Below, in pieces: positions 2,864 to 17,029 of a stretch of 32,969 bases of DNA (within the stretch, counting starts at the first letter, position 1; each line of letters starts with the position of its first letter). The stretch is from assembly GCA_016780745.1 (NCBI GenBank), contig JADHLJ010000002.1, positions 1 through 32,969 of the forward strand, written 5' to 3'. This stretch comes from Alphaproteobacteria bacterium. Lineage in GTDB: Bacteria > Pseudomonadota > Alphaproteobacteria > Thalassobaculales > Thalassobaculaceae. The position numbers and the translations under genes were made by a program. Below the pieces are notes generated by a model. The model did no database searches, was not told where the DNA came from, and worked only from the letters and a program-made list of their open reading frames with translations.

Positions 2864-3952
2864 TTAGGCGGTGGTCTGATGTCGCCACGCGGCGATCATG
2901 GCTTCGGCGGCTGTGCCCACGTCCTCGGCGGTTGTGAAGCGACCGAGGCATAGTCGGATTGAGCGTGCGGCGGCGTCTGGGTCGAGCCCAAGCGCGGCCA
3001 GCACCGGAGAGGGTGCGTTCGATCCGCTGGCACAGGCGGACCCGGCGGAGATCGCGATATCCGGCATGGCGAGGATGAAGTCCTCGGCGTCTACCTTCGG
3101 TAGGGTCAGGTTCAGATTTCCGGCGATCCGCGCGGTCATAGATCCGTTGATGACAAGGCCCGGGATGCCAGCCCGCAGCTGGGCGAGCAAACCATCCCTT
3201 AGCCCGGTGAGGCGTTCGCGTTCGGATTCAAGGTCCTCGCGCGCAATAGCGGCGGCGGTCGCGAAACCAACCACAAGGGGAAGCGGCACGGTACCCGCGC
3301 GCAACCCCATTTCCTGACTACCGCCTCTCATCAGCGGTTCGAGCTCGATTCCGGTGCGAATGAAAAGCGCGCCGACACCCATCGGGCCATGGGCCTTATG
3401 GGCGGAGAAGCTCGCGAGATCGATGCCGAGGGCTTTGACATCCACGGCGACCTTGCCCAGGGCTTGCGCGCAATCGACATGCAGCAGCACATCCCTCGCG
3501 TGGCAGATTTCGGCGATCGCGGCGATGGGTTGAATGATCCCGATTTCATGGTTCACCAGGGCGATCGAGACTAAACGCGTGCTGGGTTCGATGGCGACGG
3601 CGAGGCGATCGGGATCGATCAAACCATCACCATCAACGGCAAGGATGGTGACATCACGCGCTTTCAAGACGCTGGGATGCTCGATTGATGATACCAGCAC
3701 ATCGTCCGTAACTCCGCGCAGCGCCATGTTGTTGGCCTCGGTCGCGCCCGAGGTGAAGATGATTTCGCTCGCCCCCGCACCGACGGCCTCGGCGAGATCC
3801 TGGCGGGCCTTCTCAACCGCCTCGCCGGCGCGCCAGCCAATGGCGTGATCACGGGAATGCGGATTGCCGAAACCGCCCTCGAAATAGGGCCACATCTCCG
3901 CCAGCACCCGAGGGTCGAGTGGCGTCGTCGCGTGATGATCCAGATAGATCAC
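2864..3952 (-). CDS. Cysteine desulfurase (NifS/IscS-type, candidate molybdenum-cofactor sulfur donor)
   Basis: A PLP enzyme of 362 residues that removes sulfur from cysteine to form an enzyme persulfide. It has the opening YLDHHATTPLDPRVL, the TSGATEANNMAL motif (~68-78), the PLP lysine Lys186 in SFSAHKAHGPMGVGAL and the persulfide cysteine Cys307 in SAGSACASGSN. GTG start at 3952, only 3 bases after the adenine deaminase stop, so the two are translationally linked. No IscU, IscA, SufE or other Fe-S assembly gene is nearby. Its place in an operon with xdhABC suggests it sulfurates the XDH molybdenum cofactor through XdhC, as reported for the NifS4 protein of Rhodobacter capsulatus. Enzyme class is seen directly; the dedicated role is inference. 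Confidence 0.93.
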   Translation of the reverse strand: MIYLDHHATTPLDPRVLAEMWPYFEGGFGNPHSRDHAIGWRAGEAVEKARQDLAEAVGAGASEIIFTSGATEANNMALRGVTDDVLVSSIEHPSVLKARDVTILAVDGDGLIDPDRLAVAIEPSTRLVSIALVNHEIGIIQPIAAIAEICHARDVLLHVDCAQALGKVAVDVKALGIDLASFSAHKAHGPMGVGALFIRTGIELEPLMRGGSQEMGLRAGTVPLPLVVGFATAAAIAREDLESERERLTGLRDGLLAQLRAGIPGLVINGSMTARIAGNLNLTLPKVDAEDFILAMPDIAISAGSACASGSNAPSPVLAALGLDPDAAARSIRLCLGRFTTAEDVGTAAEAMIAAWRHQTTA

Positions 3953-3955
3953 CGA

Positions 3956-4960
3956 TCACCCCGCCGCCTCGGCCAGCCGCGCGAGAGCCCGGGCTTTCTC
4001 GTCCGGCGCGATGAAAGCGGCCTCGAAGCTGTTACGGGCGAGAGCGATGACTTCGTCGTCGGTCAGATCGAGCGCCGTGTCTAGGGCCTGGAAGTTCTCA
4101 TTCACATAACCGCCGAAATACGCCGGGTCATCGGAATTCACGGTCGCGATCAGCCCGGCCTCCAGCATGCGCCGGATCGGGTGCTCCCTCATGTCGTCGA
4201 TCACGCATAGCCGAAGATTGGACAGTGGACAGACGGTGAGCGGGATCTTGTCCCGAGCGATCCGGAGGACCAATTCCCTGTCCTCGAGCGCCCGGTTGCC
4301 GTGGTCGATCCGATCCACGCCGAGGATCTCGATCGCTTCCCAGACATAATCCGGCGGTCCTTCCTCGCCGGCATGGGCGACGAGATGAAATCCTTGATCG
4401 CGGGCGCGTCTGAAGACGTTTTTAAATTTGCGCGGCGGGTGACCGAGTTCCGAGCTGTCCAACCCGATGCCGATGATCCGATCCTTGTGGGCGAGCGCCA
4501 AGTCCAGCATGCGCTCGGCGTCGACCTCATCGAGATGCCGCAGAAAGCACATTATCAGGTGGCCGGAGATCCCGAGATTGCGCGCGGCGTCATCAAGCGC
4601 GTCATTGAGGCCGCCAAGGACGTCATCGAAAGCGACACCGCGCGGCAAATGGCCTTGCGGGTCGAAGAATATCTCCACGTGTTTGACGTTATCCGCGGCC
4701 GCGCGGGCGAGATAAGCGGTTGCCAGATCGCGAAAATCAACCCGGCTTCGCAGTACCGACATACCTTGGTAATAGAGGTTGAGAAAATCCTGGAGCTGGT
4801 CGAATTGATAGGCCGCGAGCACCTCTTCGCGCGAGCTAAAGGGCAGGCTCACGTTGTTACGGGTCGCCAGGTCCAGCATCAACGAGGGCTCCAGGCTGCC
4901 TTCGATGTGGATGTGTAACTCGGCCTTGGGAAGGGCATTGATCAATCCCGCGCGCGCCAT
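3956..4960 (-). CDS. Adenine deaminase of the ADA family (annotation pipelines may say adenosine deaminase)
   Basis: A 334-residue zinc amidohydrolase. Metal ligands are visible as His16 and His18 in PKAELHIHIEGSLEP, His196 in HLVAHAGEEGPPDY (with Glu199 as proton shuttle), His220 in DRIDHGNRAL and Asp277/Asp278 in NSDDPAYFGGYV. The phrases LDSSELGHPP, VCPLSNLRLCV and NSDDPAYFGGYVNENF are, from memory of the family, typical of the adenine deaminase (type 2) branch rather than of adenosine deaminases. The expected reaction is adenine to hypoxanthine plus ammonia, feeding XdhAB. ATG at 4960 has an AGGGAGA ribosome site. It is separated from the binding-protein gene by 131 bases with a hairpin, and followed at 3 bases by the cysteine desulfurase. 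Confidence 0.9.
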   Translation of the reverse strand: MARAGLINALPKAELHIHIEGSLEPSLMLDLATRNNVSLPFSSREEVLAAYQFDQLQDFLNLYYQGMSVLRSRVDFRDLATAYLARAAADNVKHVEIFFDPQGHLPRGVAFDDVLGGLNDALDDAARNLGISGHLIMCFLRHLDEVDAERMLDLALAHKDRIIGIGLDSSELGHPPRKFKNVFRRARDQGFHLVAHAGEEGPPDYVWEAIEILGVDRIDHGNRALEDRELVLRIARDKIPLTVCPLSNLRLCVIDDMREHPIRRMLEAGLIATVNSDDPAYFGGYVNENFQALDTALDLTDDEVIALARNSFEAAFIAPDEKARALARLAEAAG

Positions 4961-4996
4961 GTGTCGTTCTCCCTGAAAACAACCTTGAAAACGAAC

Positions 4997-5028
4997 GCCC
5001 CGCTCCGGCCAGGAGGGCGGAACGGGGC
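4997..5028 (-). terminator. Likely intrinsic terminator or attenuator after the BMP-family gene
   Basis: On the minus strand GCCCCGTTCCG and CGGAGCGGGGC form an 11-pair stem with one G-U wobble around a 10-base loop, followed by the T-rich GTTCGTTTTCAAGGTTGTTTTC. The T tract is interrupted, so termination may be partial. It lies 63 bases past the BMP gene stop and 37 bases before the adenine deaminase start, and could reduce read-through from the transporter genes. Confidence 0.55.
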
Positions 5029-5091
5029 TTCGATGGAAGATCCGGGTAGGTCCGGATATCCGCGCGTTACGCGGGCACTTACTTTGCCAAC

Positions 5092-6171
5092 TTATTTGGG
5101 CAGCGAGCCCTCGACGCCCTCGACATAGAAATTCATGCCGAGAAGCATACCCGCGTCGGCGACCTTGCCGGCCTCGACCACGACCTTGCCGGACTGATCC
5201 TTGATCGGTCCCGCGAAGGGATGCAGCTTGCCGCTACGGATCGCTTCCTCGGTCTCTTTCGCCAGTTTGGCGACATCGGCCGGCATGTTCTTATACGGTG
5301 CCATCTGAACCATGCCTTCCTTCAGGCCATACCAGACGTCCTGGGATTTCCAGGTGCCGTCGATCACCGCGCGGGTCCGCTCCACGTAGTACGGGTTCCA
5401 GTCATCGATGATCGCCGAGAGCTGAGCCTTGGGGGCGAAATGCTCCATGTCAGAGGCCTGCCCGAAGCCCTTCACGCCGCGGTTCTCGGCGACCTGAAGC
5501 GGGGCGGGGGAATCGGTGTGCTGGGTGATGATGTCGGCGCCTTGGTCAATCAGGGCTTTGGCGGCATCACCTTCCTTGCCGGGGTCGTACCAGCTGTTCA
5601 CCCAGACCACGCTAATGGACATGGCCGGATTAACCGAGCGCGCGCCAAGCAGGAAGGCGTTGATGCCACGCACCACCTCGGGAATCGGGAAGGAAGCGAC
5701 ATAGCCGATCTTGTTGGTCTTGGACGTCTTGCCCGCGATCACGCCGGCGATGTAGCGACCCTCGTAGAAGCGCCCGCTATAGGTCGCGACGTTCTTGTCC
5801 TGCTTATAGCCGGTGGCATGCTCGAACTTCACGTTGGGGAAGCGCTTGGCGACCTTGATCGTCGGGTTCATGAAGCCGAAGGACGTGGTGAAGATCAGGT
5901 CATGTCCCGACGCGGCGAGCTGGCGGATCACCCGCTCTGAATCCGGACCTTCCTTGACGCTTTCGACAAAGGTGGTCTTCACCTTGTCGCCGAATTCCTT
6001 CTCGATCGCGAGACGGCCTTGGTCATGCCGGTAGGTCCAGCCATGGTCGCCGATGGGGCCGACATAGACAAAGCCGACCTTGGTTTGCGCCGACGCGGAC
6101 GCCATGCCGGCGGCAAGGATGCCCACGGAAAGCGCGCTGGCGAGCGCCTTGAAAACGGTTCTTCTCTTCAT
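5092..6171 (-). CDS. BMP family ABC transporter substrate-binding protein (putative purine base/nucleoside receptor)
   Basis: A 359-residue periplasmic binding protein. Residues 1-29 are a Sec signal peptide (KRR, a hydrophobic run, then ASASA-Q, cleavage near 29). No lipobox cysteine is present, so the mature protein should be free in the periplasm. The mature part opens KVGFVYVGPIGDHGWTYRHD and contains ERVIRQLAASGHDLIFTTSFG, GYVASFPIPEVVRGINAF and DQGADIITQHTDSPAPLQVA, which match the BMP/Med family. BMP proteins pair with permeases of the kind encoded just upstream and in characterised cases bind nucleosides or nucleobases. ATG at 6171 has a GGGGGATC ribosome site. The binding protein is encoded last of the transporter genes, 80 bases after the permease, before a hairpin. 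Confidence 0.92.
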   Translation of the reverse strand: MKRRTVFKALASALSVGILAAGMASASAQTKVGFVYVGPIGDHGWTYRHDQGRLAIEKEFGDKVKTTFVESVKEGPDSERVIRQLAASGHDLIFTTSFGFMNPTIKVAKRFPNVKFEHATGYKQDKNVATYSGRFYEGRYIAGVIAGKTSKTNKIGYVASFPIPEVVRGINAFLLGARSVNPAMSISVVWVNSWYDPGKEGDAAKALIDQGADIITQHTDSPAPLQVAENRGVKGFGQASDMEHFAPKAQLSAIIDDWNPYYVERTRAVIDGTWKSQDVWYGLKEGMVQMAPYKNMPADVAKLAKETEEAIRSGKLHPFAGPIKDQSGKVVVEAGKVADAGMLLGMNFYVEGVEGSLPK

Positions 6172-6251
6172 ATTCGATCCCCCGATGTCAGGATTGAGTT
6201 GCGATTATCGATGTTCTCCCGGATCAATCCATCGATGCCGCCGCGATTTTA

Positions 6252-7169
6252 TCAATGAGCGGCATGGAAGACCTTTCCGATACATTGCGGCGCGTTGAGC
6301 CGGATTTTCGTTTTGTCTCTCGAAATTAACACCAATACCAGGATTGTCGCGAGATAGGGCAGCATCGACATGAATTGGGAGGCGATCTCGATGCCCCAAC
6401 CCTGGGCATGCAGTTGCAGGATCGTGATGGCACCGAACATATAGGCGCCGAGGACTACCCGGCCAGGTCTCCAAGTGGCGAAAACCACCAGGGCCAGCGC
6501 GATCCAGCCTCGTCCCGCCGTCATGTTTTCGGCCCAAAGCGGGGTGTAGGCAAGCGAGAGATAAGCCCCGGCGAGGCCGCTCATCGCGCCGCCGAAAAGC
6601 ACCGCGGCATAGCGAATCGCGATGACGGGATAACCGAGCGCATGCGCCGAATCGTGGCTCTCGCCGACGGCTTTCAAGATTAGTCCCGGGCGGGTGCGCG
6701 AGAGAAACCAGGCGACGGCGAGTATCATCACGAAGGAGAGATAGACCAGGATATCCTGTCCGAACAGGATCGGGCCGATCACCGGGATGTCCGAAATCAC
6801 CGGGATCGCCAGTTTCGGCAAAGGCTCCAACGCGAAGCCGACGAAACCCGCGCCGATCAGCGCGCTGATGCCGATCCCGAAGATCGTCAGCGCCAGGCCG
6901 GTCGCCACTTGGTTGGCGAGCATGGTCAGTGTCAGAAACGCGAAGACCGAGGCCATCACCGTGCCGGCGGCGGCGCCGGCGACGATCCCGGCGAGGCCGC
7001 TGCCGGTGGTGCTGGCGACCGCGAAGGCTGCGATCGCGCCGACCAGCATCATGCCCTCGACGCCGAGATTGAGAACCCCGGACTTCTCGGTGACGAGCTC
7101 ACCGGTGGCGGCGAAGAGCAGCGGCGTGGAGGCGGTGATGACGGTCAGGATAACAGGAACGAAATCCAT
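6252..7169 (-). CDS. ABC transporter permease, BMP/nucleoside-type (second permease)
   Basis: An integral membrane protein of 305 residues with about eight hydrophobic segments. The opening TVITASTPLLFAATGELVTE followed by KSGVLNLGVEGMMLVGAIAA is the hallmark of the NupQ-like permease branch (BPD_transp_2 family). Near the C-terminus GRGWIALALVVFATWRPGR carries the conserved coupling-helix region that contacts the ATPase. It forms a heterodimeric channel with the preceding permease and moves the ligand of the BMP protein across the inner membrane. ATG at 7169, 3 bases after the other permease's stop. Given the purine enzymes on both sides, purine bases or nucleosides are the likely cargo (inference). 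Confidence 0.92.
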   Translation of the reverse strand: MDFVPVILTVITASTPLLFAATGELVTEKSGVLNLGVEGMMLVGAIAAFAVASTTGSGLAGIVAGAAAGTVMASVFAFLTLTMLANQVATGLALTIFGIGISALIGAGFVGFALEPLPKLAIPVISDIPVIGPILFGQDILVYLSFVMILAVAWFLSRTRPGLILKAVGESHDSAHALGYPVIAIRYAAVLFGGAMSGLAGAYLSLAYTPLWAENMTAGRGWIALALVVFATWRPGRVVLGAYMFGAITILQLHAQGWGIEIASQFMSMLPYLATILVLVLISRDKTKIRLNAPQCIGKVFHAAH

Positions 7170-7172
7170 GGC

Positions 7173-8249
7173 TCAGCTCCCCCTTGCCCGGCCCGGGGCG
7201 CCGAAACGGATGCGATAATGGGTCAGCACGTCACAGCCCAGCAGGAAGAACAAGAGAATGCCCTGAAACAGACCGGTAACGGCCGCCGGCAGTCCGATCT
7301 CGATCTGCGCCACCTCGCCGCCGATATAGGACAGCGCCATGATCAGGCCCGCCAGCAGGACGCCGACTGGGTGCAACCGTCCCAGAAAGGCGACGATGAT
7401 AGCGGTAAAGCCATAGCCCGGCGAAATCGACGGCAGGAGCTGGCCGATCGTACCCGCGACCTCGGCCACGCCGGCCAGCCCCGCGAGGCCACCGCCAAGG
7501 AGAAGCGAGAACCAGATCAGCTTGTTCTGGCTGAACCCCGCGTGCTTGGCCGCCGCCGGGGCTTGGCCGACGACCCGCAACTGGAAGCCGATGACGGCAC
7601 GGGACAGGATTACCCAGCCCCCGACCACCGCGAGCACCGCCAGGGCGGCACCGAGATGCAAGCGGCTGTCTTCCCAGAGCACCGGCATCATCGCCGCCGC
7701 CGGAAACAACCGACTTTCCGGAAAGTTGTAGCCGTCGGGATCGCGCCACGGCCCATGCACCAGGTAACTGAGCAGGAGGACCGCCACATAGGTCAGCATC
7801 AGGCTGGTGAGGATTTCGTTCGCGTTGAAGCGGGTCTTCAGAAACGCCGGCACCGCCCCCCAAGCCATGCCGCCCAGGATGCCGCCGATCATCACCACGG
7901 GAAGCAGCAGGAAATTGTCGCTGTCGTGAAAGGCGATGGCGATGCCGCCGCCGACGATGGCCCCGATGGTGAATTGCCCCTCCGCCCCGATATTCCAGAC
8001 ATTGGCGCGAAACCCAATGGAAAGCCCGATACCGATCAGTACCAGCGGCGTTGCCTTGACCAGAAGCTCGGTAACGCCGAAGGCCGTGGTCAGTGGCTGG
8101 ACGAAATAGGTATAGAGCGCGAGGCCGGGATCCTTGCCCATGGCCGAGAATATGACGACGCCGCTTATCAGGGTCAGCACGATCGCCACGACCGGGGAGA
8201 GCAAACTCCAGGCTCGCGAGACATCGCCTCGAGATTCCAGCCTAACCAT
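7173..8249 (-). CDS. ABC transporter permease, BMP/nucleoside-type (first permease)
   Basis: A 358-residue membrane protein of the NupP-like branch. It begins with a short cytoplasmic tail, then a first membrane segment at ~15-38 (LLSPVVAIVLTLISGVVIFS). TPLVLIGIGLSIGFRANVWN, GAEGQFTIGAIVGG and LKTRFNANEILTSLMLTYVA are family phrases, and GYGFTAIIVAFLGRLHPVGV is the expected coupling-helix region. Its ATG overlaps the end of the ATPase gene by 8 bases and it is followed 3 bases later by the second permease, so the three are surely one translational unit. Length and topology are ordinary for the family. Confidence 0.92.
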   Translation of the reverse strand: MVRLESRGDVSRAWSLLSPVVAIVLTLISGVVIFSAMGKDPGLALYTYFVQPLTTAFGVTELLVKATPLVLIGIGLSIGFRANVWNIGAEGQFTIGAIVGGGIAIAFHDSDNFLLLPVVMIGGILGGMAWGAVPAFLKTRFNANEILTSLMLTYVAVLLLSYLVHGPWRDPDGYNFPESRLFPAAAMMPVLWEDSRLHLGAALAVLAVVGGWVILSRAVIGFQLRVVGQAPAAAKHAGFSQNKLIWFSLLLGGGLAGLAGVAEVAGTIGQLLPSISPGYGFTAIIVAFLGRLHPVGVLLAGLIMALSYIGGEVAQIEIGLPAAVTGLFQGILLFFLLGCDVLTHYRIRFGAPGRARGS

Positions 8250-9843
8250 TGGCCCGGCCCTCCGATCCCACGGTGTCGGCGAGGTCGTGCAACCCGCCCA
8301 TCAGGAGGCCGACTTCCTCAACGGTAATAGCTTCGATATCGCGGGGCTCGGAGACCATGCCTTCGGAAATTACCACGATGCGGTCACAGATCTCGAAGAT
8401 CTCGTCCAAGTCCTGGGAAATCACGAGCACCGCGCAGCCGCGCCGGGCGAGATCCATCAGTGCTTGGCGAATGGTTGCCGCCGCGCCCGCGTCGACGCCC
8501 CAAGTCGGCTGAGAGATAATGAGGATGCCCGGCTCCTGCAGGATTTCGCGCCCGACGATATATTTCTGCAGATTGCCGCCCGAAAGACTCCCGGCCGCCG
8601 CCTCGGCGCCGGTGGTGCGAACATCGAAGGCCGAGATCACCTTGTCGGCGAAACTCCGGATCTCACCATGGCGCATCATACCGTTGGCCATCAATTTCAT
8701 GCGGGTCGCGGCGGTCAGGAAGGCGTTGTCCGAGAGACTCATATCCTTGACGGCGGCGTGGCCATTGCGCTCTTCCGGTACGAAATTAGCGCCCAGCGCG
8801 CGCCTTTCCGCGGGGTTGAGCGAGCCGACCGACAATCCGTCGAAACGGATACTGTCGGGCTGCCGTCGGTTCTGGATCTCTCCGGACAGAGCCGACATAA
8901 GCTCGGTCTGTCCGTTTCCCGCCACGCCCGCGACCCCAAGGATCTCGCCACGTCGGACCTTGAAGGATATTTCGCGCAGGTCGATACCGAATTGGTCCTC
9001 CGACGCGATGCTAAGCCGCGAGACCATGATGCGATCGGTTCGCGAAACCTCGCCCCCGTCACGCCGGGTCGGGGTCAATTTCTGGCCGATCATCAGCTCG
9101 GCCATGCCCTGCGCGGTTTCCTGGCGTGGGTCGCAGGTCGCCACGACCTTGCCGCCGCGCAGGATCGTCGCCGCTTCGCACAGCGCCTTCACCTCGTCCA
9201 GCTTGTGACTGATATAGAGGATCGCGCAGCCCTCGTCGGAAAGTTGGCGCAGGGTCTCGAATAGTTTCTCGGCTTCCTGGGGTGTCAGCACCGATGTCGG
9301 CTCGTCCAGGATCAGCAGCTTCGGATTCTGCAGCAGACAGCGCACGATCTCGATCCGCTGTCGCTCGCCCACCGAGAGCGAATGCACATGCCGGTCCGGG
9401 TCAAGCGGCAGGCCATAGCTGGTCGACACTTCGATCACCCGTTGCTTCAGCGCCGTCATGTCGCGCTGATCGTTCATGGCGAGGCCGATGTTTTCCAGCA
9501 CCGTCATCGCCTCGAATAGCGAGAAGTGCTGGAACACCATGCCGATCCCCAGATCACGGGCCGCGGCCGGGCCGGGAATGGCGGTCGGCGCGCCGTTCCA
9601 GGAGAGCGTCCCGCTATCAGCGCCGAGCACGCCGTAGATGATCTTCACCAGGGTTGATTTGCCGGCGCCGTTCTCGCCGAGAAGTGCGTGAATCTCGCCG
9701 GGCTTGATCTGGAAGCTGATCGAATCGTTGGCGACGATGCCGGGGAAGGCCTTGGTGATCCGGTCCAGCGCAAGCAGCGGCGCGGCGTCTGGAACTTCGC
9801 CGCCGTCTTGCTTTTCCGCCATCTCGTCGCTCTGTTGCGTCAC
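8242..9843 (-). CDS. ABC transporter ATP-binding protein with two ABC domains (BMP/nucleoside-type importer)
   Basis: A 533-residue fused tandem ATPase. The N-terminal domain has Walker A GENGAGKST (~56-64), signature LSVGERQRIEIVR and Walker B LLILDEPTSVLTPQE. The C-terminal domain has a degenerate P-loop (GVAGNGQTELMSAL), signature SLSGGNLQKYIVGRE and a Walker B-like ILIISQPTWGVDAGAA in which the usual Asp-Glu pair is replaced by Ser-Gln. That asymmetry is typical of sugar/nucleoside importers of this type, so only one site is expected to be fully hydrolytic. GTG start at 9843 with a GAGGAAGAG-type ribosome site; an internal ATG at codon 8 is possible. It follows guaD by 40 bases and overlaps the first permease. 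Confidence 0.94.
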   Translation of the reverse strand: MTQQSDEMAEKQDGGEVPDAAPLLALDRITKAFPGIVANDSISFQIKPGEIHALLGENGAGKSTLVKIIYGVLGADSGTLSWNGAPTAIPGPAAARDLGIGMVFQHFSLFEAMTVLENIGLAMNDQRDMTALKQRVIEVSTSYGLPLDPDRHVHSLSVGERQRIEIVRCLLQNPKLLILDEPTSVLTPQEAEKLFETLRQLSDEGCAILYISHKLDEVKALCEAATILRGGKVVATCDPRQETAQGMAELMIGQKLTPTRRDGGEVSRTDRIMVSRLSIASEDQFGIDLREISFKVRRGEILGVAGVAGNGQTELMSALSGEIQNRRQPDSIRFDGLSVGSLNPAERRALGANFVPEERNGHAAVKDMSLSDNAFLTAATRMKLMANGMMRHGEIRSFADKVISAFDVRTTGAEAAAGSLSGGNLQKYIVGREILQEPGILIISQPTWGVDAGAAATIRQALMDLARRGCAVLVISQDLDEIFEICDRIVVISEGMVSEPRDIEAITVEEVGLLMGGLHDLADTVGSEGRANG

Positions 9844-9883
9844 GGTCTCTTCCTCGTCGGCGGCCTTGGCCGCTTTTGCCCAA

Positions 9884-10357
9884 TCAATAGGGTATCTTGT
9901 CTTCCTTATCGCGCCATTCCTGAAAAATCGATCCGGCCTCGGGCGAAGGCAGATGAATCAGCGGAAGAGAGCGTTGGGCGATGGGTTTCGCCACTTCATC
10001 ATACAGGAACGAATCGTCGAAGCCGATCCGCGCGGCATCCTCGCGGTCATTGGCGAAATAGGCCTTGTCGATACGTGCCCAATAGATCGAGGCCAGACAC
10101 ATCGGACAGGGCTCGCAGCTTGCGTAAAGCTCGCAACCGGCGAGCGAGAAGGTGCCGAGGTTCCGGCAGGCTTCGCGGATCGCGACGACCTCGGCATGGG
10201 CGGTGGGATCGTTGCTGGAGGTTACCTGGTTGGCGCCCTCGCCGACGATCTCGCCATCCTTGACGACGACCGCGCCGAAAGGGCCGCCCAACCCCTTGCG
10301 CATATGTTCGCCCGAGATGGCGACGGCCCGGGCCATGAAACTCTCTGGAGTGCTCAT
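9884..10357 (-). CDS. guaD: Guanine deaminase, cytidine/deoxycytidylate deaminase fold (GuaD-type)
   Basis: A 157-residue zinc deaminase expected to convert guanine to xanthine plus ammonia. The zinc site is complete: His54 and catalytic Glu56 in TAHAEVVAIREAC, and Cys84/Cys87 in SCEPCPMCLASIYWAR. The region DREDAARIGFDDSFLYDE and the aromatic tail ending DKIPY resemble the Bacillus subtilis GuaD pattern, which separates it from tRNA-adenosine deaminases (TadA). ATG at 10357 has GGGAG about 8 bases upstream. It sits 16 bases after xdhC, and xanthine, its product, is the substrate of XdhAB encoded in the same operon. A broader nucleoside/purine deaminase specificity is possible. Confidence 0.9.
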   Translation of the reverse strand: MSTPESFMARAVAISGEHMRKGLGGPFGAVVVKDGEIVGEGANQVTSSNDPTAHAEVVAIREACRNLGTFSLAGCELYASCEPCPMCLASIYWARIDKAYFANDREDAARIGFDDSFLYDEVAKPIAQRSLPLIHLPSPEAGSIFQEWRDKEDKIPY

Positions 10358-10373
10358 CCTTCTCGCTCCCCGT

Positions 10374-11228
10374 CTAGCCGGACAATGACATTGGCGCGCC
10401 GCGTTCCGCCAGCGCTTGTTCGCGATATCGCAGAATTTGCGCCGTCACCGAGGCGGCGATCACCGCCGGTTGCTTGCCGTCGATACCGTCGATGCCGATC
10501 GGACAAACCAGTCGCGAGAGCGCCTGGTCGTTGTGCCCGCGTGCCTTGAGCCGGGCGATGAAGCGGGCCCGCTTGGTGGCGCTACCGATCAAGCCGACGA
10601 AAGGGAGATCGACGCGCCCAAGAGCCGCGTTCACGATGTCGAAATCCTGGGCATGGCTGTGCGTCATCACCAAGAGCATCGCGCCCGAGGGAATGTTCGC
10701 AACCTCAAGGTGCGGCGCGCGTGAGGGCAGGGGCTGGGTGTTGCCGCCTCCGCCATCGACCATTTCGGGGCGGCTGTCCACCCAGGTGATGTCGGTCTCC
10801 AGCGGCTCCAGCGCGCGAACCACCGCCTGACCGACATGGCCGGCACCGAACAACCACAGGGTCGCGCGTTCCGCCTCCACGGTCGCCAGCCATTGCTCCA
10901 GCGGCCTCGTGTTCCCGGCGTTGAGCGTTTGGTAGCGCAATCGTACCGAGCCGCCACAACATTGTCCGATCGCCGGACCCAGCGGGATGGTCTCGGTGTC
11001 CGGTAGCGTCCGATGATCCAGCATGCCGGCGCGGGCCCGGGTGATCGCACCATGTTCCAGCGCGCCGCCGCCGATGGTGCCGATGATGTCGCGCGCGAAG
11101 ACCAGCATCGCCGCATCGCCATCTCGCGGCGCCGAGCCGGCGGCTGCCTCAATGGCAACCAGCACGGCCGTCTCGCCGAGCGCCAGCCGCTCTTTCGCGG
11201 CATGGATCTGGCCCGAGAGCCCAGTCAT
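10374..11228 (-). CDS. xdhC: Xanthine dehydrogenase accessory protein XdhC
   Basis: A 284-residue XdhC/CoxI-family chaperone that binds the molybdenum cofactor, promotes addition of its terminal sulfido ligand and hands it to XdhB. Visible features are the N-terminal GSAPRDGDAAMLVF and GTIGGGALEH (XdhC_CoxI domain), QCCGGSVRLRYQ (~93-104), and the C-terminal Rossmann-like part with LWLFGAGHVGQAVVRAL and TWVDSRPEM, then VMTHSHAQDFDIV and LPFVGLIGSATKRARF. The C-terminal end PIGIDGIDGKQPAVIAASV is also typical. The ATG overlaps the xdhB stop by 4 bases (ATGA), showing translational coupling with the enzyme it matures. Confidence 0.95.
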   Translation of the reverse strand: MTGLSGQIHAAKERLALGETAVLVAIEAAAGSAPRDGDAAMLVFARDIIGTIGGGALEHGAITRARAGMLDHRTLPDTETIPLGPAIGQCCGGSVRLRYQTLNAGNTRPLEQWLATVEAERATLWLFGAGHVGQAVVRALEPLETDITWVDSRPEMVDGGGGNTQPLPSRAPHLEVANIPSGAMLLVMTHSHAQDFDIVNAALGRVDLPFVGLIGSATKRARFIARLKARGHNDQALSRLVCPIGIDGIDGKQPAVIAASVTAQILRYREQALAERGAPMSLSG

Positions 11229-13564
11229 GTCGTGCTCTCCCGGGCCCTCGTATCCTCAACCGCGGCGAGGACGCGCTCGGGTGTCGCCGGCATGTCGAGA
11301 TTGGCGAGCAGTCGCCCGCCGGACAGGCTTGAAATCGCGTCGGAGATTGCGTGCGGGACGGAGATCGCCAGCATCAAGGGTGGCTCTCCCACCGCCTTGG
11401 ATCGGTGAATGGTTTCCTCGACATTCTCACCCCGTTCCCACAGCGTGACCGTGAAGTGCTCGGGCCGGTCGCCGCAGGTCGGGATCTTGTAGGTCGATGG
11501 CGCATGGGTCGCGAGACGCCCCTCGTTATTCCAGAAGAGCTCCTCGGTGGTGAGCCACCCCATGCCTTGGATAAACCCTCCCTCGACCTGGCCGAGATCG
11601 ATCACCGGGTTAAGCGACTTGCCAACGTCATGCAGGATATCAACCGCCAAGACCTTGGACTCGCCGGTCAGCGTGTCGATCGCGACCTCGGTTACCGCCG
11701 CGCCATAAGCGAAGTAATAGAAGGGTCTTCCCGACGCGGTCTCGCGGTCGTATTGGATCTTCGGCGTCCGATAAAATCCGGTCGCCGACAATTGCACCCG
11801 GTCGAGATAGGCGAGTTTCACCAACTCGGCGAAGGACAACTCATGATCGCCGGCTCTAACGCGATTGGCGCGGAAGGTCACATCGCTCTCGGCGACCCCG
11901 AAACGTCGCGCGGCGAACGCGACCAATCGCTCGCGGATGGTCCGAGCCGCCGCCAACGCCGCCATGCCGTTCATGTCCGATCCCGATGAGGCCGCCGTCG
12001 CCGAGGTGTTCGGCACCTTGCCGGTATTGGTGGCGCTGATCTTGATCCGGTCGAGATCGATCTGAAATTCCTCGGCCACGACCTGGGCGACCTTGATGAA
12101 CAGGCCTTGGCCCATCTCGGTACCGCCGTGATTCAGATGCACGCTGCCATCGGTATAGACGTGGATCAGCGCACCGGCCTGGTTCAGGAAGGTGGTGGTG
12201 AAGGAAATCCCGAACTTCACCGGGGTCAGCGCGATGCCGCGTTTCAAAATCAGGCTTTTCGCATTGAAGGTTTCGATCTCGGCCCGCCGTTCGACATAGC
12301 GGGCGCTGGCGGACAATTCATCGATCAATTGATCGGCGACATTATCCTCGACGGTCATGTGATAGGGCGTGACGTCCCGGCCGGGCCCACCATAGAGATT
12401 GCGCCGCCGCACCTCCAGCGGATCAAGGCCTAACGCGCGGGCGATCGCTTCGATGACACGTTCTATCACCACCATGCCCTGGGGCCCGCCGAAGCCGCGA
12501 AAGGCCGTGTTCGAGACCGTGTTGGTCCGACATCGATGCGCGGTGATCTCGACATTATCCAGGTAATAGCAATTGTCGGCGTGAAACATCGCCCGGTCGA
12601 CGATCGCGCCCGAAAGATCCGCCGAGAAGCCGCAACGCGCGGCCATGTCGATGGCCAGTCCTTGGATCACTCCATCCTCGCCGAAGCCGACATCGTAATC
12701 GGCGAGGAAGTCGTGGCGCTTGCCGGTCATGATCATGTCGTCGTCGCGATCGAGGCGCATCTTCGCGGCCCGCCCGGTCTTGACCGCCGCCAGCGCGGCC
12801 AGGGCCGCCCATTGCGAGGCCTGGGTCTCCTTGCCGCCAAAGCCGCCCCCCATGCGCCGGACCTCGACGGTGACCGCGTTATCGGGGCGGCCCAGGACCT
12901 TGGCGACGTTGTGCTGAACCTCCGAGGGGTGTTGGGTCGAACAATGCACCAGGACGTCGCCATCCTCGCCCGGGATCGCCAGCGAGACTTGACCTTCGAG
13001 ATAGAAATGATCCTGGCCCCCGATCTCTATCCGTCCCTTGAGGCGCTTCGGCGCCGTCTCGAGGGCGCTATCAGGTTCCCCCCGGCGCATGGTGTGCGGG
13101 TCGAGGACGAAGGATTTCTTGGCCAGCGCGTCCTCGATGGTAAGGATCGCGTCCAGCGGCTCAATCTCGACCTCGGCGAGGCCGATGGCGGCGCGCGCCT
13201 GCTCGATGGTTTCCGCCGCGACGGCGAATAGCGGCTGGCCTTGGAAATGCACGACCCCGTCGGCAAGGCAAGGATCGTCATTAGTACCGGTTGGGCTGAC
13301 ATCGTTCTGGCCCGGAATATCGGTCGCCGTCAAAACACAAGCGACGCCGGGTGCCTCGCGTGCCTGTGACACATTAAGCTTGATGATCCGGCCATGGGCG
13401 ATGGTCGATTTCGCGGCCACGACGTGCAGGCAACCCAACGGCTCGACGATATCGTCGATATAGAACGCCTCTCCGGTGACATGCTTGGCGCCGCTGTCAT
13501 GGGGAAGCTTTTCGCGGACCCCGCCCTGGATCCGCGCGCTTGTAAAGGTTTGCGCCTCAAACAC
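11225..13564 (-). CDS. xdhB: Xanthine dehydrogenase molybdopterin-binding subunit XdhB
   Basis: The 779-residue large subunit that binds the molybdenum cofactor and oxidises hypoxanthine to xanthine and xanthine to urate. GGGFGGKETQ at 239-248, TAFRGFGGPQG near 350, GGTEMGQGLFIKVAQV and SATNTGKVPNTSATAASSG mark cofactor contacts. The catalytic glutamate is Glu727 in VGEPPLMLAISV. Length is standard for a bacterial XdhB and no domain is missing. The GTG start at 13564 has GGAGG 6 bases upstream and overlaps the xdhA stop by 8 bases. Coupling to xdhA before and xdhC after gives the common xdhABC order. The holoenzyme is cytoplasmic, an (AB)2 complex in characterised relatives. Confidence 0.97.
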   Translation of the reverse strand: MFEAQTFTSARIQGGVREKLPHDSGAKHVTGEAFYIDDIVEPLGCLHVVAAKSTIAHGRIIKLNVSQAREAPGVACVLTATDIPGQNDVSPTGTNDDPCLADGVVHFQGQPLFAVAAETIEQARAAIGLAEVEIEPLDAILTIEDALAKKSFVLDPHTMRRGEPDSALETAPKRLKGRIEIGGQDHFYLEGQVSLAIPGEDGDVLVHCSTQHPSEVQHNVAKVLGRPDNAVTVEVRRMGGGFGGKETQASQWAALAALAAVKTGRAAKMRLDRDDDMIMTGKRHDFLADYDVGFGEDGVIQGLAIDMAARCGFSADLSGAIVDRAMFHADNCYYLDNVEITAHRCRTNTVSNTAFRGFGGPQGMVVIERVIEAIARALGLDPLEVRRRNLYGGPGRDVTPYHMTVEDNVADQLIDELSASARYVERRAEIETFNAKSLILKRGIALTPVKFGISFTTTFLNQAGALIHVYTDGSVHLNHGGTEMGQGLFIKVAQVVAEEFQIDLDRIKISATNTGKVPNTSATAASSGSDMNGMAALAAARTIRERLVAFAARRFGVAESDVTFRANRVRAGDHELSFAELVKLAYLDRVQLSATGFYRTPKIQYDRETASGRPFYYFAYGAAVTEVAIDTLTGESKVLAVDILHDVGKSLNPVIDLGQVEGGFIQGMGWLTTEELFWNNEGRLATHAPSTYKIPTCGDRPEHFTVTLWERGENVEETIHRSKAVGEPPLMLAISVPHAISDAISSLSGGRLLANLDMPATPERVLAAVEDTRARESTT

Positions 13565-15044
13565 GCGTGCCTCCGTCCGCCGAGTCCAGGGCCAGCGCGC
13601 CAGGCCCGATGAGCCGGGTTTGGGTTTCCGCTTGCGTCGTTTCGATGAAGGCCTTGGTGAGCAGGTTGCGAGCCACGGAGAGGCGATAATCCGCCGAAGC
13701 GCGCATGTCCGAGATCGGTTGAAACTCCTCGGTCAGGGCATCTCGCGCGGCGGCGAGCGTGATCTCGTTCCAGGGTTTGCCGATCAGGGCCGCTTCGCAG
13801 GCCCGGGCGCGTTTCGGTGTTGCGGCCATGCCGCCGAAGCAGATCCGCGCCGATTGGAGCCGACCATTGGTGACGCTCAGATTGAAGGCCCCGAGCACGG
13901 CGGTGATGTCTTGGTCGAAACGTTTGGAGATTTTGTAACAGCGCAACCGTCCCGCCTGGGAGAGCGGCACACGAACCTTCTCCACGAATTCGCCGGGCTC
14001 CAGGTCCTGTTTGCCATAGGCGATGAAGAAATCCTCCAGCGGGATTTCTCGACTATTCTCGCCACGGCGAAGCACGAGGCGCGCGTCGAGCGCGATCAAC
14101 GCCGGCGGCATATCTCCGATGGGAGAGCCATTGGCGATATTGCCGCCGATGGTGCCGGCGTTGCGGATCTGGCGGGACCCGATGCGCCGTATCAACTCGC
14201 CAAGATCCGGCGCGTGCTCGGCGATCGCCTCCAGGGCGTCCTCGTAGGTGACGCCGGCGCCGATCTCGAGTTCGCCATTCGTTATCGTCAGGCGCTTCAG
14301 GTCGTCGATCGCACCGAGATAGATCACCGGATCAAGGCGGCGGTGCTGTTTGGTGACCCAGAGCCCGACATCCGTCGCGCCCGCGAGCAGACAAGCCTCT
14401 GGATAGTCTCCCAGCAACTGAGAAAGATCGTCGATGCTTGTCGGCGCGAAGTAGCGGGTGCCGTCGGATACCAGCGCCAAGGCCCCGTCGGGTCCGATCG
14501 CGGCGAGACGCTCGGCGATGGAATCGCGGTCCAAAGGTCCGCCTTTAAGCGCCTGGGAAGGGCCCATCTTTCGAGCCGCCTCGATGATCGGGCCGTAACC
14601 GGTGCAGCGACAGAGATTGCCGGCCAGCGCGTCGTCGATCCGCCCGCGGTCCATCGCGCCGCCCTCTGCTTGCAAGGCGACCATCGACATCACGAAGCCC
14701 GGCGTGCAGAACCCGCATTGCGAGCCATGCGCCTCGACCATGGCGGTTTGCACCGGATGCGGCGCGCCATCCGCGGCTTTCAGGTGCTCGACCGTCAGGA
14801 GTTGCTTGCCGTTGAGGGTTGGCAGGAACTGGATGCAGGCATTGACGGCGCGATACCGCATGGCCCCATCCGAAAGCTCGCCCAGGACCACGGTGCAGGC
14901 GCCGCAATCGCCCTCGGCGCAACCTTCCTTGGTGCCGGTCAGGCGTTCCTCGCGACGGAGGTAATTCAGGACCGTCATGGTCGGATCGATATCGGAGATC
15001 CGGCGTTCTTCGTCTCCCAACAGAAAGCGGATCTCATCTCTCAC
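13557..15044 (-). CDS. xdhA: Xanthine dehydrogenase small subunit XdhA (2Fe-2S and FAD)
   Basis: A 495-residue subunit that carries electrons from the molybdenum site to NAD+. Two [2Fe-2S] clusters are readable: the plant-ferredoxin type with Cys42, Cys47 and Cys50 in KEGCAEGDCGACTVVL plus Cys70, and the second with Cys110, Cys113, Cys145 and Cys147 (QCGFCTPGF and NLCRCTGYGP). The FAD domain follows with LLAGATDVGLWVTKQHR, GTIGGNIANGSPIGD and the C-terminal CO-dehydrogenase flavin domain. GTG start at 15044, with GGGAG 7-8 bases upstream; the nearby ATG is out of frame. It follows hiuH by 12 bases. Confidence 0.97.
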   Translation of the reverse strand: MRDEIRFLLGDEERRISDIDPTMTVLNYLRREERLTGTKEGCAEGDCGACTVVLGELSDGAMRYRAVNACIQFLPTLNGKQLLTVEHLKAADGAPHPVQTAMVEAHGSQCGFCTPGFVMSMVALQAEGGAMDRGRIDDALAGNLCRCTGYGPIIEAARKMGPSQALKGGPLDRDSIAERLAAIGPDGALALVSDGTRYFAPTSIDDLSQLLGDYPEACLLAGATDVGLWVTKQHRRLDPVIYLGAIDDLKRLTITNGELEIGAGVTYEDALEAIAEHAPDLGELIRRIGSRQIRNAGTIGGNIANGSPIGDMPPALIALDARLVLRRGENSREIPLEDFFIAYGKQDLEPGEFVEKVRVPLSQAGRLRCYKISKRFDQDITAVLGAFNLSVTNGRLQSARICFGGMAATPKRARACEAALIGKPWNEITLAAARDALTEEFQPISDMRASADYRLSVARNLLTKAFIETTQAETQTRLIGPGALALDSADGGTRV

Positions 15045-15056
15045 CGGCTGGCTCCC

Positions 15057-15407
15057 TTAGCTTCCACGATAAGTGGAATAGCCGTAGGGCGAAAGCAGCA
15101 ACGGCACATGATAGTGCGAGCCCGGCTCGGCGATCCCGAAACGGATCATCACCTCGTCCAGAAACGCCGGATCGGGGATCTCGATCCCTTGCGCCCGGAA
15201 ATAGTCACCAGCGTGAAAAACCAGCTCGTACCGCCCGACGCGAAAAACGTCCTGATCCATTAACGGCGCGTCGCAGCGCCCGTCGTGATTGGTGACGGTA
15301 TCGACCAGCGGCTCGCGTTCCTGGGAGAGGTCAAATAATTCGATCCGAACACCACTCGCCGGACGCCCCGAGGTTGTGTCGAGCACATGCGTCGTCAAGC
15401 GGCCCAT
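15057..15407 (-). CDS. hiuH: 5-hydroxyisourate hydrolase (transthyretin-like)
   Basis: A 116-residue HIUase that hydrolyses 5-hydroxyisourate, the product of urate oxidation, to OHCU. All signature residues are present: His7 in [14 protein letters not shown], Arg44 in [10 protein letters not shown], His98 in [18 protein letters not shown] and the C-terminal YRGS. I chose the ATG at 15407 because it has GGGAGA 7-9 bases upstream and gives the family's usual length; the open frame extends to 15491 but adds an unrelated 28-residue tail. It is the first gene of the purine cluster and so lies next to its likely promoter. Its presence implies urate oxidation in this cell, although no uricase gene is seen in this window. 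Confidence 0.95.
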
Positions 15408-15472
15408 CGCACTCTCCCAATCTGTCTTCAACTTGTCGGGCTGTTGTATCGAAGGAGACGGTCGCATGGCTA

Positions 15473-15521
15473 AGATTATCAGGAAATCCACGATAATTCG
15501 GAAATACTATCAAAATTATCG
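15473..15521. promoter_or_regulatory. Candidate operator/promoter zone of the purine operon
   Basis: This AT-rich patch stands out in GC-rich DNA, about 65 bases before hiuH. It holds a perfect inverted repeat, CGATAATT at 15491-15498 and AATTATCG at 15514-15521, with 15 bases between and about 23 bases centre to centre, or two helical turns. A related AGATTATC lies at 15473-15480. A dimeric or LysR/TetR-like regulator could bind here. No convincing -35/-10 pair was found, and no regulator gene is in the window. The role is inference. Confidence 0.35.
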
Positions 15522-15556
15522 AGAAGGTGTGGCGGGGGAAGTCAATCCCCATTCCC

Positions 15557-16060
15557 GTATCCCTGGGCTTGACCCAGGGCCTCTTCCGCCGTTGGTTCCG
15601 TCTGACGCGGTGGGTCGAGCCCGGTTGGCCGGGGGGGCGGGGTCCTTCGACCATTTTGGAACTGGTGAAGGCCGGTGGAGGCGGCCCTGGCTTTCGCCAG
15701 GGATACGCGGAGGGTCGTATCCCTGGGCTTGACCCAGGGCCCCTTCCGCTGGCGGTTCCGCAAGGCGGGGTGGGGCGAGCCCGGTTGGTGGGGCGGGCGG
15801 GGTCCTTCGACCATATTGGAACCGGTGAAGGCCGGCGGAGGCGGCCCTGGCTTTCGCCAGGGATACGCGGAGGGTCGTATCCCTGGGCTTGACCCAGGGC
15901 CCCTTCCGCTGGCGGTTCCGCAAGGCGGGGTGGGCGGGGTCCTTCGACCATTTTGGAACTGGTGAAGGCCGGCGGAGGCGGCCCTGGCTTTCGCCAGGGA
16001 TACGCGGAGGGTCGTATCCCTGGGCTTGACCCAGGGCCGCTTCCGCCGTCGGTTCCGCTT
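15557..16060. repeat. Tandem array of ~160-base hairpin-ended repeat units (three full, one partial)
   Basis: Units run 15557-15716 (160 bases), 15717-15876 (160), 15877-16013 (137, with an internal 23-base deletion) and a partial unit from 16014. Each begins GTATCCCTGGGCTTGACCCAG, a 7-pair stem with a CTTGA loop, and ends with CCCTGGCTTTCGCCAGGG, a 7-pair stem with a TTTC loop, followed by ATACGCGGAGGGTC. The two ends are inverted copies of each other over GTATCCCTGG, so each unit resembles a small non-autonomous element or a REP/BIME pair. Units 2 and 3 are nearly identical apart from the deletion; unit 1 is more diverged. Open frames through the array encode only repeated Pro/Gly/Arg strings and are not taken as genes. 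Confidence 0.93.
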
Positions 16061-16156
16061 GGCCTTGCGGCGGCTTTGGAAGGCGGTGTTCATGGCGACG
16101 GGTTCCGTGCGAATATTTCCAACATCACGCCCCATCCGACCCTGGAGACATTCCCG

Positions 16157-17029
16157 ATGCATCCGATCACCGAAATCACCCACCACCACGCCGAGTTGGG
16201 CGAGGTGATGCTGCACTATGTGACGGCGGGGGAAGGGCCTCCGGTTGTGCTGCTTCATGGCTGGCCGCAGACCTGGTGGGAATGGCGACATGTGATTCCG
16301 GCACTGGCCGAGCATTACACCGTGATCGCGCCGGATATGCGCGGCCTTGGCGACAGCTCTCGGCCGCTCGGCGGTTATGACAAGAAGACCGTCGCCGATG
16401 ACATCTGGCGCCTGGTCAATGGGGAGATGGGCCACGAGACTTTCTATCTCGTCGGTCATGATTGGGGCGGGCCGACCGCTTATGCGCTGGCGGCGGCGCA
16501 CCCCGACGCGGTGACCAAGCTGGTGATCCTGGATGTCACGGTCCCCGGTTGCGGCGGAGATTTCTCCGAGGGCGGGCGGCGCTGGCATCATCAATTCCAT
16601 ATGACACCGGATCTGCCCGAGGCGCTGATCGAGGGGCGCGAGGAGATTTATCTCGCCTGGTTCTACCGCACCTTCGCCTACCGGGCCGATGCGATTACCG
16701 AGGATGATCTGGCGGAGTATCTGCGCACCTATACCCAGCCCGGCGCGATGCGGGCCGGGTTCTCGTATTACCGCGAGATGCTTCGCGATGCCCGCGAGAA
16801 CGCCGAGATCATCGCGCGGTTCAAGCTGCCGATGCCGGTGCTGGCGATCGGCGGCGGCGTCAGCTACCCACATGGCCGGGGGCGCGGTGCCCAGGCGGGG
16901 GAGTCGTTGAGGCGGGTCGCGGTTAATGTTCAATCCGAGGTCTTCGAGGCCTGTGGGCACTTCATTCCCGAGGAGGCGCCAGATCGTTTGAACCGACGCC
17001 TGCTTGAATTCTTCGCGGAAAAAGCCTGA
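16157..17029 (+). CDS. Epoxide hydrolase-like alpha/beta hydrolase
   Basis: A 290-residue alpha/beta-fold enzyme. HGWPQ (34-38) is the oxyanion-hole motif, Asp102 in VGHDWGGPTAYALA is the nucleophile expected of epoxide hydrolases and haloalkane dehalogenases, and His268 in EACGHFIPEEAPD is the catalytic base. The ATG at 16157 has GGAGA 8 bases upstream and gives the normal length; the open frame extends back into the repeat array but that part is not protein-like. The gene ends in TGATG, overlapping the MmgE/PrpD start by one base. It is the first gene of a four-gene plus-strand cluster. A fluoroacetate dehalogenase-type activity is a possible alternative, but epoxide hydrolase is the better fit. 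Confidence 0.88.
   Translation: MHPITEITHHHAELGEVMLHYVTAGEGPPVVLLHGWPQTWWEWRHVIPALAEHYTVIAPDMRGLGDSSRPLGGYDKKTVADDIWRLVNGEMGHETFYLVGHDWGGPTAYALAAAHPDAVTKLVILDVTVPGCGGDFSEGGRRWHHQFHMTPDLPEALIEGREEIYLAWFYRTFAYRADAITEDDLAEYLRTYTQPGAMRAGFSYYREMLRDARENAEIIARFKLPMPVLAIGGGVSYPHGRGRGAQAGESLRRVAVNVQSEVFEACGHFIPEEAPDRLNRRLLEFFAEKA

Follow-up and report, generated by a model that had tools for sequence, protein, structure and literature searches.

A tandem array of head-to-head REP pairs between divergent genes in an alphaproteobacterial MAG

The array described here spans positions 15556-16058 of a 32,969-nucleotide stretch of DNA (the window), which is contig 89 of an alphaproteobacterial MAG of 4.09 Mb and 378 contigs with a completeness of 84.9% (G000), and it lies between two divergent genes. 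Its unit is a head-to-head REP pair of the REPIN/BIME-like kind, and the whole is probably a tandem cluster of such pairs that was copied in place, either by slippage or template switching or by unequal exchange, and that probably has no dedicated function. Arrays of this kind are known from other bacteria, and the one in the window is real but largely ordinary.

The units and their neighbors are listed in Table 1. The starts of the first three units are spaced by exactly 160 nt, and the third unit is reduced to 137 nt by one 23-nt deletion in its spacer. Each unit consists of two inverted tagged hairpins, with the tag CGTAT directed outward and a spacer of 105 or 82 nt; the left hairpin is CCCTGGG-CTTGA-CCCAGGG and the right one CCCTGGC-TTTC-GCCAGGG, and CGTAT and ATACG flank them on the outside as inverted copies. 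Since the tags are outside, the units are head-to-head in the sense in which a passage of PMC3733652 uses the term. Alignment and TRF (scores 646 and 496) confirmed what the original prediction had described, that is, three units at 160-base steps, the third with a single deletion and a truncated fourth, as well as two distinct hairpins per unit, with a CTTGA loop at the left and a TTTC loop at the right, whose outer parts are inverted copies. The array as such stood; its limits, which had been set at 15557-16060, were corrected. In 100 mononucleotide shuffles of 15401-16200, TRF reported no array with a period of at least 60 nt. Units 1 and 2 are identical at 144 of 160 positions (16 differences), units 2 and 3 at 135 of 137 aligned positions, and in both differences between the latter two the letter of unit 3 is that of unit 1, as is expected of exchange between units. 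Over its 46 nt, the partial fourth unit has three differences from the start of each of the other units.

Table 1. Location of the array units, the flanking genes and two arrays of the sister family
Feature	Position	Strand	Description
HIUase/transthyretin family gene (PF00576)	15057..15407	-	directed away from the array
Unit 1	15556..15715	+	REP+ 15556-15579; 105-nt spacer; REP- 15685-15707; 8-nt junction CGGAGGGT 15708-15715
Unit 2	15716..15875	+	REP+ 15716-15739; REP- 15845-15867; 8-nt junction CGGAGGGT
Unit 3	15876..16012	+	REP+ 15876-15899; REP- 15982-16004; 82-nt spacer
Partial unit 4	16013..16058 (46 nt)	+	lone REP+ 16013-16036 with tail
Alpha/beta hydrolase gene (PF00561)	16157..17029	+	directed away from the array
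Sister-family array L220 (contig C205)	2242-2707		CGTC tag, tandem
Sister-family array L236 (contig C365)	6069-6492		CGTC tag, tandem

Other classes of repeat were considered and rejected. Unit lengths of 160 and 137 nt, neither of which is a multiple of three, speak against a coding repeat, and the spacers inside the array repeat one another, against what a CRISPR-like array would present. A structured RNA family was discarded as well, since the three Rfam matches obtained for 15300-16300 at E values up to 1 were all far under the gathering score. The literature text search for the hairpin string returned unrelated work only.

Compared with shuffled sequences, the predicted single-strand DNA folds of unit 1, unit 3 and a unit junction gave z values of -3.33, -4.04 and -4.05, respectively, and the predicted RNA fold of unit 2 one of -3.28, whereas a lone partial REP reached only -1.82 as single-strand DNA. 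Where two units meet, the right hairpin of the first can also pair with the left hairpin of the second, in a perfect stem of 11 bp around an 8-nt loop.

The genome-wide search for the unit showed that the tagged hairpin belongs to a dispersed family, with 70 exact matches in the genome against none for the reversed-pattern control; without the tag, the hairpin was found at 78 sites and the control at two. The search expression fixed the five inner pairs of the stem and allowed C/T-G/A at the outermost one, the seventh pair being the main test. This seventh pair was standard in all 73 copies of G000 (G-C in 11, C-G in 49 and A-T in 13), a count in which copies that share an array are not independent, and also in 22 of 22 copies of the congener G002 (four of them G-T) and in the three copies of the congener G001 (one of them G-T). 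The pairing of the hairpin is thus maintained through sequence change. Two types of tail, GCTTCCGCCGG-like and CATGCCGTGATG-like, are present in the family, and of 51 candidate head-to-head pairs 34 were kept, the 17 dropped being tail-facing pairs, misreads and one partial pair in L015. When the tagged pattern was searched in 61 genomes (the own genome and 60 relatives), the own genome had 70 occurrences, G002 had 25, G001 three, and G017, G020 and G034 one each, and the pattern was absent from the other 55. A sister family in the same genome bears the CGTC tag proper; its hairpins pair CGTCGTCCTGGCGNAAGGCAGGACC with CGTCGCCCTGGCGNACGGCAGGGCC, and it gave 65 matches at up to three mismatches and none for the control.

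Tandem organization is not restricted to the window. Self-similar tandem stretches of 90 nt or more were observed at nine of the 25 window-family loci read (the window, L009-L028 and L116-L119), namely the window and L009-L016. In the sister family, arrays were present at 10 of 17 loci (L220, L236, L286-L291, L293 and L299, 73% identity), a fraction that is likely above the true share, as these loci were on 17 of the 24 contigs matched and contigs with several hits were taken first. The periods are specific to each locus, from 119 to 317 nt, and in the sister family from about 119 to 214 nt. At the two-copy loci L014 and L015 the pair is repeated and the DNA between pairs is not; where three copies are present, as in L009 and L011, the DNA in between is repeated too, and the repeats of L013 and L290 take in flanking sequence outside the pairs. 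In a less biased sample of 40 contigs (421,282 bases), TRF found four arrays with a period of at least 60 nt, and three of them are hairpin-pair repeats of related types (L204, L220 and L236); L204, at positions 1-483 of C25, that is, at a contig start, presents a third type of hairpin, with a period of 94 nt, 5.1 copies and a 96% match. The fourth array of this sample, L214 (C115, 804-1248), is a 144-nt repeat of 3.1 copies with 94% matches, and it is probably coding, 144 being a multiple of three. The congener G002 also carries arrays of these REPs (L102, L103 and L111). The same TRF test found no array with a period of at least 60 nt in 381,893 bases of the congener G001, and in 400,000 bases of the family member G022 it gave 14 rows, all of them in a single coding-looking piece of 20 kb.

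These arrays at other loci and in a second MAG also bear on the question of whether the array could be an artefact of assembly. The MAG is fragmented, and seven of the 24 REP clusters classified by gene context lie at contig ends (those of L010, L018, L019, L021, L024, L025 and L116), so the assembly probably breaks at such clusters and larger arrays may be missing; in the window, too, the true copy number of the unit may differ from the one in this assembly of 378 contigs. However, a false array would hardly combine 16 substitutions between units 1 and 2 with a 23-nt deletion private to unit 3, and we regard an assembly artefact as extremely improbable.

The boundaries and contents of the arrays were also compared. 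Array ends coincided with REP edges in 27 of 35 cases, against 9.3 expected under a crude uniform-phase null, with which not one of 200,000 simulations came up to 27. An end was counted as coincident if it lay no more than 15 nt beyond or 5 nt within the edge of a REP, a tolerance chosen after the ends had been seen. The sample comprised 18 arrays, nine per family, less one left end that a contig edge had cut off. L204, L299, the arrays of G002 and the second short repeat in L010 were omitted from it, and some REP intervals were filled by hand. Among the eight ends that fell off REP edges is that of the window array on its right side, where the tail of the lone fourth REP stops, 22 nt beyond the palindrome. 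It should be noted that conserved stretches attract the ends of BLAST alignments, and the coincidence is supportive rather than a proof. The spacer cores compared within loci had a median score of 68 (19 pairs, minimum 17), against a median of 14 and a median z of 0.3 for the 542 pairs compared between loci, which suggests that the spacers are mostly locus-specific. One or more of the within-locus pairs, at the minimum score of 17, were no better than background, and 11 of the 542 between-locus pairs, two of them from one contig, reached a z of at least 5, so whole pairs may also have moved from locus to locus. Some of the spacers appear by eye to share a short GGTTGATC-like motif.

We propose that at the window locus one REP pair beside a lone REP would have been copied in place. 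The copying could have proceeded through slippage or a switch of template where the hairpins fold, or else through unequal exchange between REPs of like orientation; units 2 and 3 would derive from a later exchange or slippage between whole units, and unit 3 would then have been shortened by the loss of 23 nt in its G-rich spacer. These duplication steps are inferred, since no one-copy allele of the window locus was found. The original prediction had offered two readings, a small element that duplicated in place or the slippage expansion of one REP pair, and both fit the REP pair, the stacks elsewhere, the near-identity of units 2 and 3 and the divergence of unit 1. On a broader scale, and much more tentatively, REP pairs of this genus might grow into tandem stacks at dozens of sites with no RAYT involved, the long hairpin of the pair, or some other factor, defining the segment to be copied, so that the stacks would be bounded by REP edges and their content would be local DNA.

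A different origin would be a non-autonomous transposon, either a REPIN that a Y1 transposase of the RAYT type mobilized or a MITE of another transposase, in which the 150-nt pair was inserted repeatedly, also beside itself. The transposon-like inverted ends of the pairs are consistent with it, and so are L014 and L015, where the pair recurs with unrepeated DNA in between. Furthermore, at C30 and C279 the orthologous intergenic regions of G001 are short, with the aligned flanks about 75 and 54 nt apart as compared with 673 and 580 nt, and by eye they contain no REP, with junctions that are not clean; at C205, G001 has one decayed REP in the place of the array of G000. On the other hand, no target duplication was readable in this comparison of G000 with G001, and the spacers of different loci are mostly unrelated, unlike copies of one mobile pair. 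In addition, the host transposase with matching ends that the original prediction had envisaged was not encountered: the PF01797 (Y1/RAYT) profile gave no match in the three congeneric MAGs G000, G001 and G002, each of them 81-87% complete, whereas it matched in eight of the 36 genomes of the same search and in five of 14 control genomes. An element driven by a RAYT was rejected on this result, which comes from three incomplete MAGs, and a transposon in general seems to us unlikely as the origin of the array. Copying in place accounts better for the array, which is probably neutral or selfish DNA between genes and could have an incidental influence on the local DNA structure.

The genomic context was evaluated with regard to a possible role in gene expression, and it gave no support to the effect on divergent transcription that the original prediction had thought possible. 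The window array lies between the divergent HIUase and hydrolase genes, and the frame of the latter is open upstream into the array, which we take as an over-long ORF. The placement between two promoters given in the original prediction was right as to the divergent genes, and its promoters would follow from gene direction; the scan of 15380-16200 found no sigma-70-like promoter and no terminator, and an intrinsic terminator was accordingly rejected for the array. Upstream of the HIUase gene, an A+T-rich stretch at 15491-15521 contains an 8-nt perfect inverted repeat (CGATAATT...AATTATCG), a candidate operator judging from its sequence. Among the 24 clusters classified, on 23 loci, seven are between convergent genes, six between genes in the same direction, four between divergent genes and seven at a contig end; divergent genes thus flank four of the 17 clusters having genes on both sides, the window cluster among them, and none of the 24 is inside a predicted gene. 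L117 and L119 were left out of this count, as they failed the strict orientation rule, and the right neighbor of the window cluster was named by the script as the next gene, owing to the over-long ORF, with no effect on its divergent class.

The comparison with the congener G001 showed another arrangement of these genes. There, the hydrolase directly follows a luciferase-like gene; the region upstream of the hydrolase was not matched to the window by blastn at an E value of 1e-5, and no hairpin of the window family was found in it (L115). No HIUase match was obtained in any of the five relatives searched, and this, together with the adjacency of hydrolase and luciferase-like genes in G001, places the window array at a synteny junction. 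A link between the array and the rearrangement was not retained, as it would rest on a single case in which nothing ties one to the other. In the window, genes apparently involved in purine salvage and breakdown (adenosine deaminase, a PnrA-like binding protein, xanthine dehydrogenase subunits and the HIUase) occupy 2864-15407, between the luciferase-like gene and the hydrolase that are adjacent in G001. A regulatory or insulating element kept by selection between the HIUase and hydrolase genes would agree with the position of the array between two divergent genes and with the different, hairpin-free upstream region in G001. However, such a position is atypical among the clusters classified, the scan for promoters and terminators was empty, and the 23-nt deletion and the divergence of the units have been tolerated; we consider selected regulation very unlikely.

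The array was also compared with known systems. The features of REPs and BIMEs in general are present, that is, a palindrome of 20-40 nt tagged on one side, in many copies and located between genes, and as in REPINs two inverted REPs are able to form one long hairpin, as indicated by the 34 pairs and the folds of the window unit; a genomic RAYT transposase, which is also part of the REPIN definition, was not found in G000, G001 or G002, all of them incomplete. The BIME-2 arrays of Escherichia coli are intergenic arrays of alternating REPs, like the window array, but these REPs are of the GTAG type and differ in sequence and tag from the window family, in which the GTAG terminal motif is absent. 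E. coli has a TnpA-REP (PMC8266576). Tandem REPIN clusters including flanking DNA have been described before, as passages of PMC3116915 and PMC3733652 indicate, and those of Pseudomonas fluorescens SBW25 are ordered tandem clusters that resemble the window array in having near-identical REP pairs in tandem together with their flanks (PMC3116915). They differ in that RAYT genes lie beside them, in contrast to the genus of the window, where no Y1 gene was found in the three incomplete congeneric MAGs; moreover, a section of PMC3733652 files the REPs of P. fluorescens as GTAG-1, while the window tag is CGTAT.

The window genome adds to these examples an alphaproteobacterial genus with frequent tandem stacks of REP pairs at the loci read and no Y1 transposase found. 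If this absence holds in a closed genome, it would be a natural case for studying whether replication or recombination alone can make REP arrays grow. The stacks could also serve as variable-number typing markers. The window family resembles the CGTC REPs of alphaproteobacteria, for which passages of PMC3733652 describe head-to-head dimers, loops of 4-5 nt, alphaproteobacterial hosts and the lack of a dedicated transposase, features that recur here, where no Y1 transposase was found in the three incomplete congeneric MAGs. The sister family carries the terminal motif CGTC itself. The window family departs from the superfamily in its tag, CGTA (CGTAT in the window), and in its stem: instead of 8-9 bp starting with A-T pairs, the window copies have 7 bp, and the family as a whole mostly a 7-bp stem without closing A-T pairs. 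The tails differ as well, with CCTC, CCCC and CCGC in the window, and CCCATGCC or TCCATGCC in some other copies, in place of CCA. Finally, according to a table in PMC3733652, clusters seldom occur in the CGTC families, whereas many of the loci read here carry tandem stacks.
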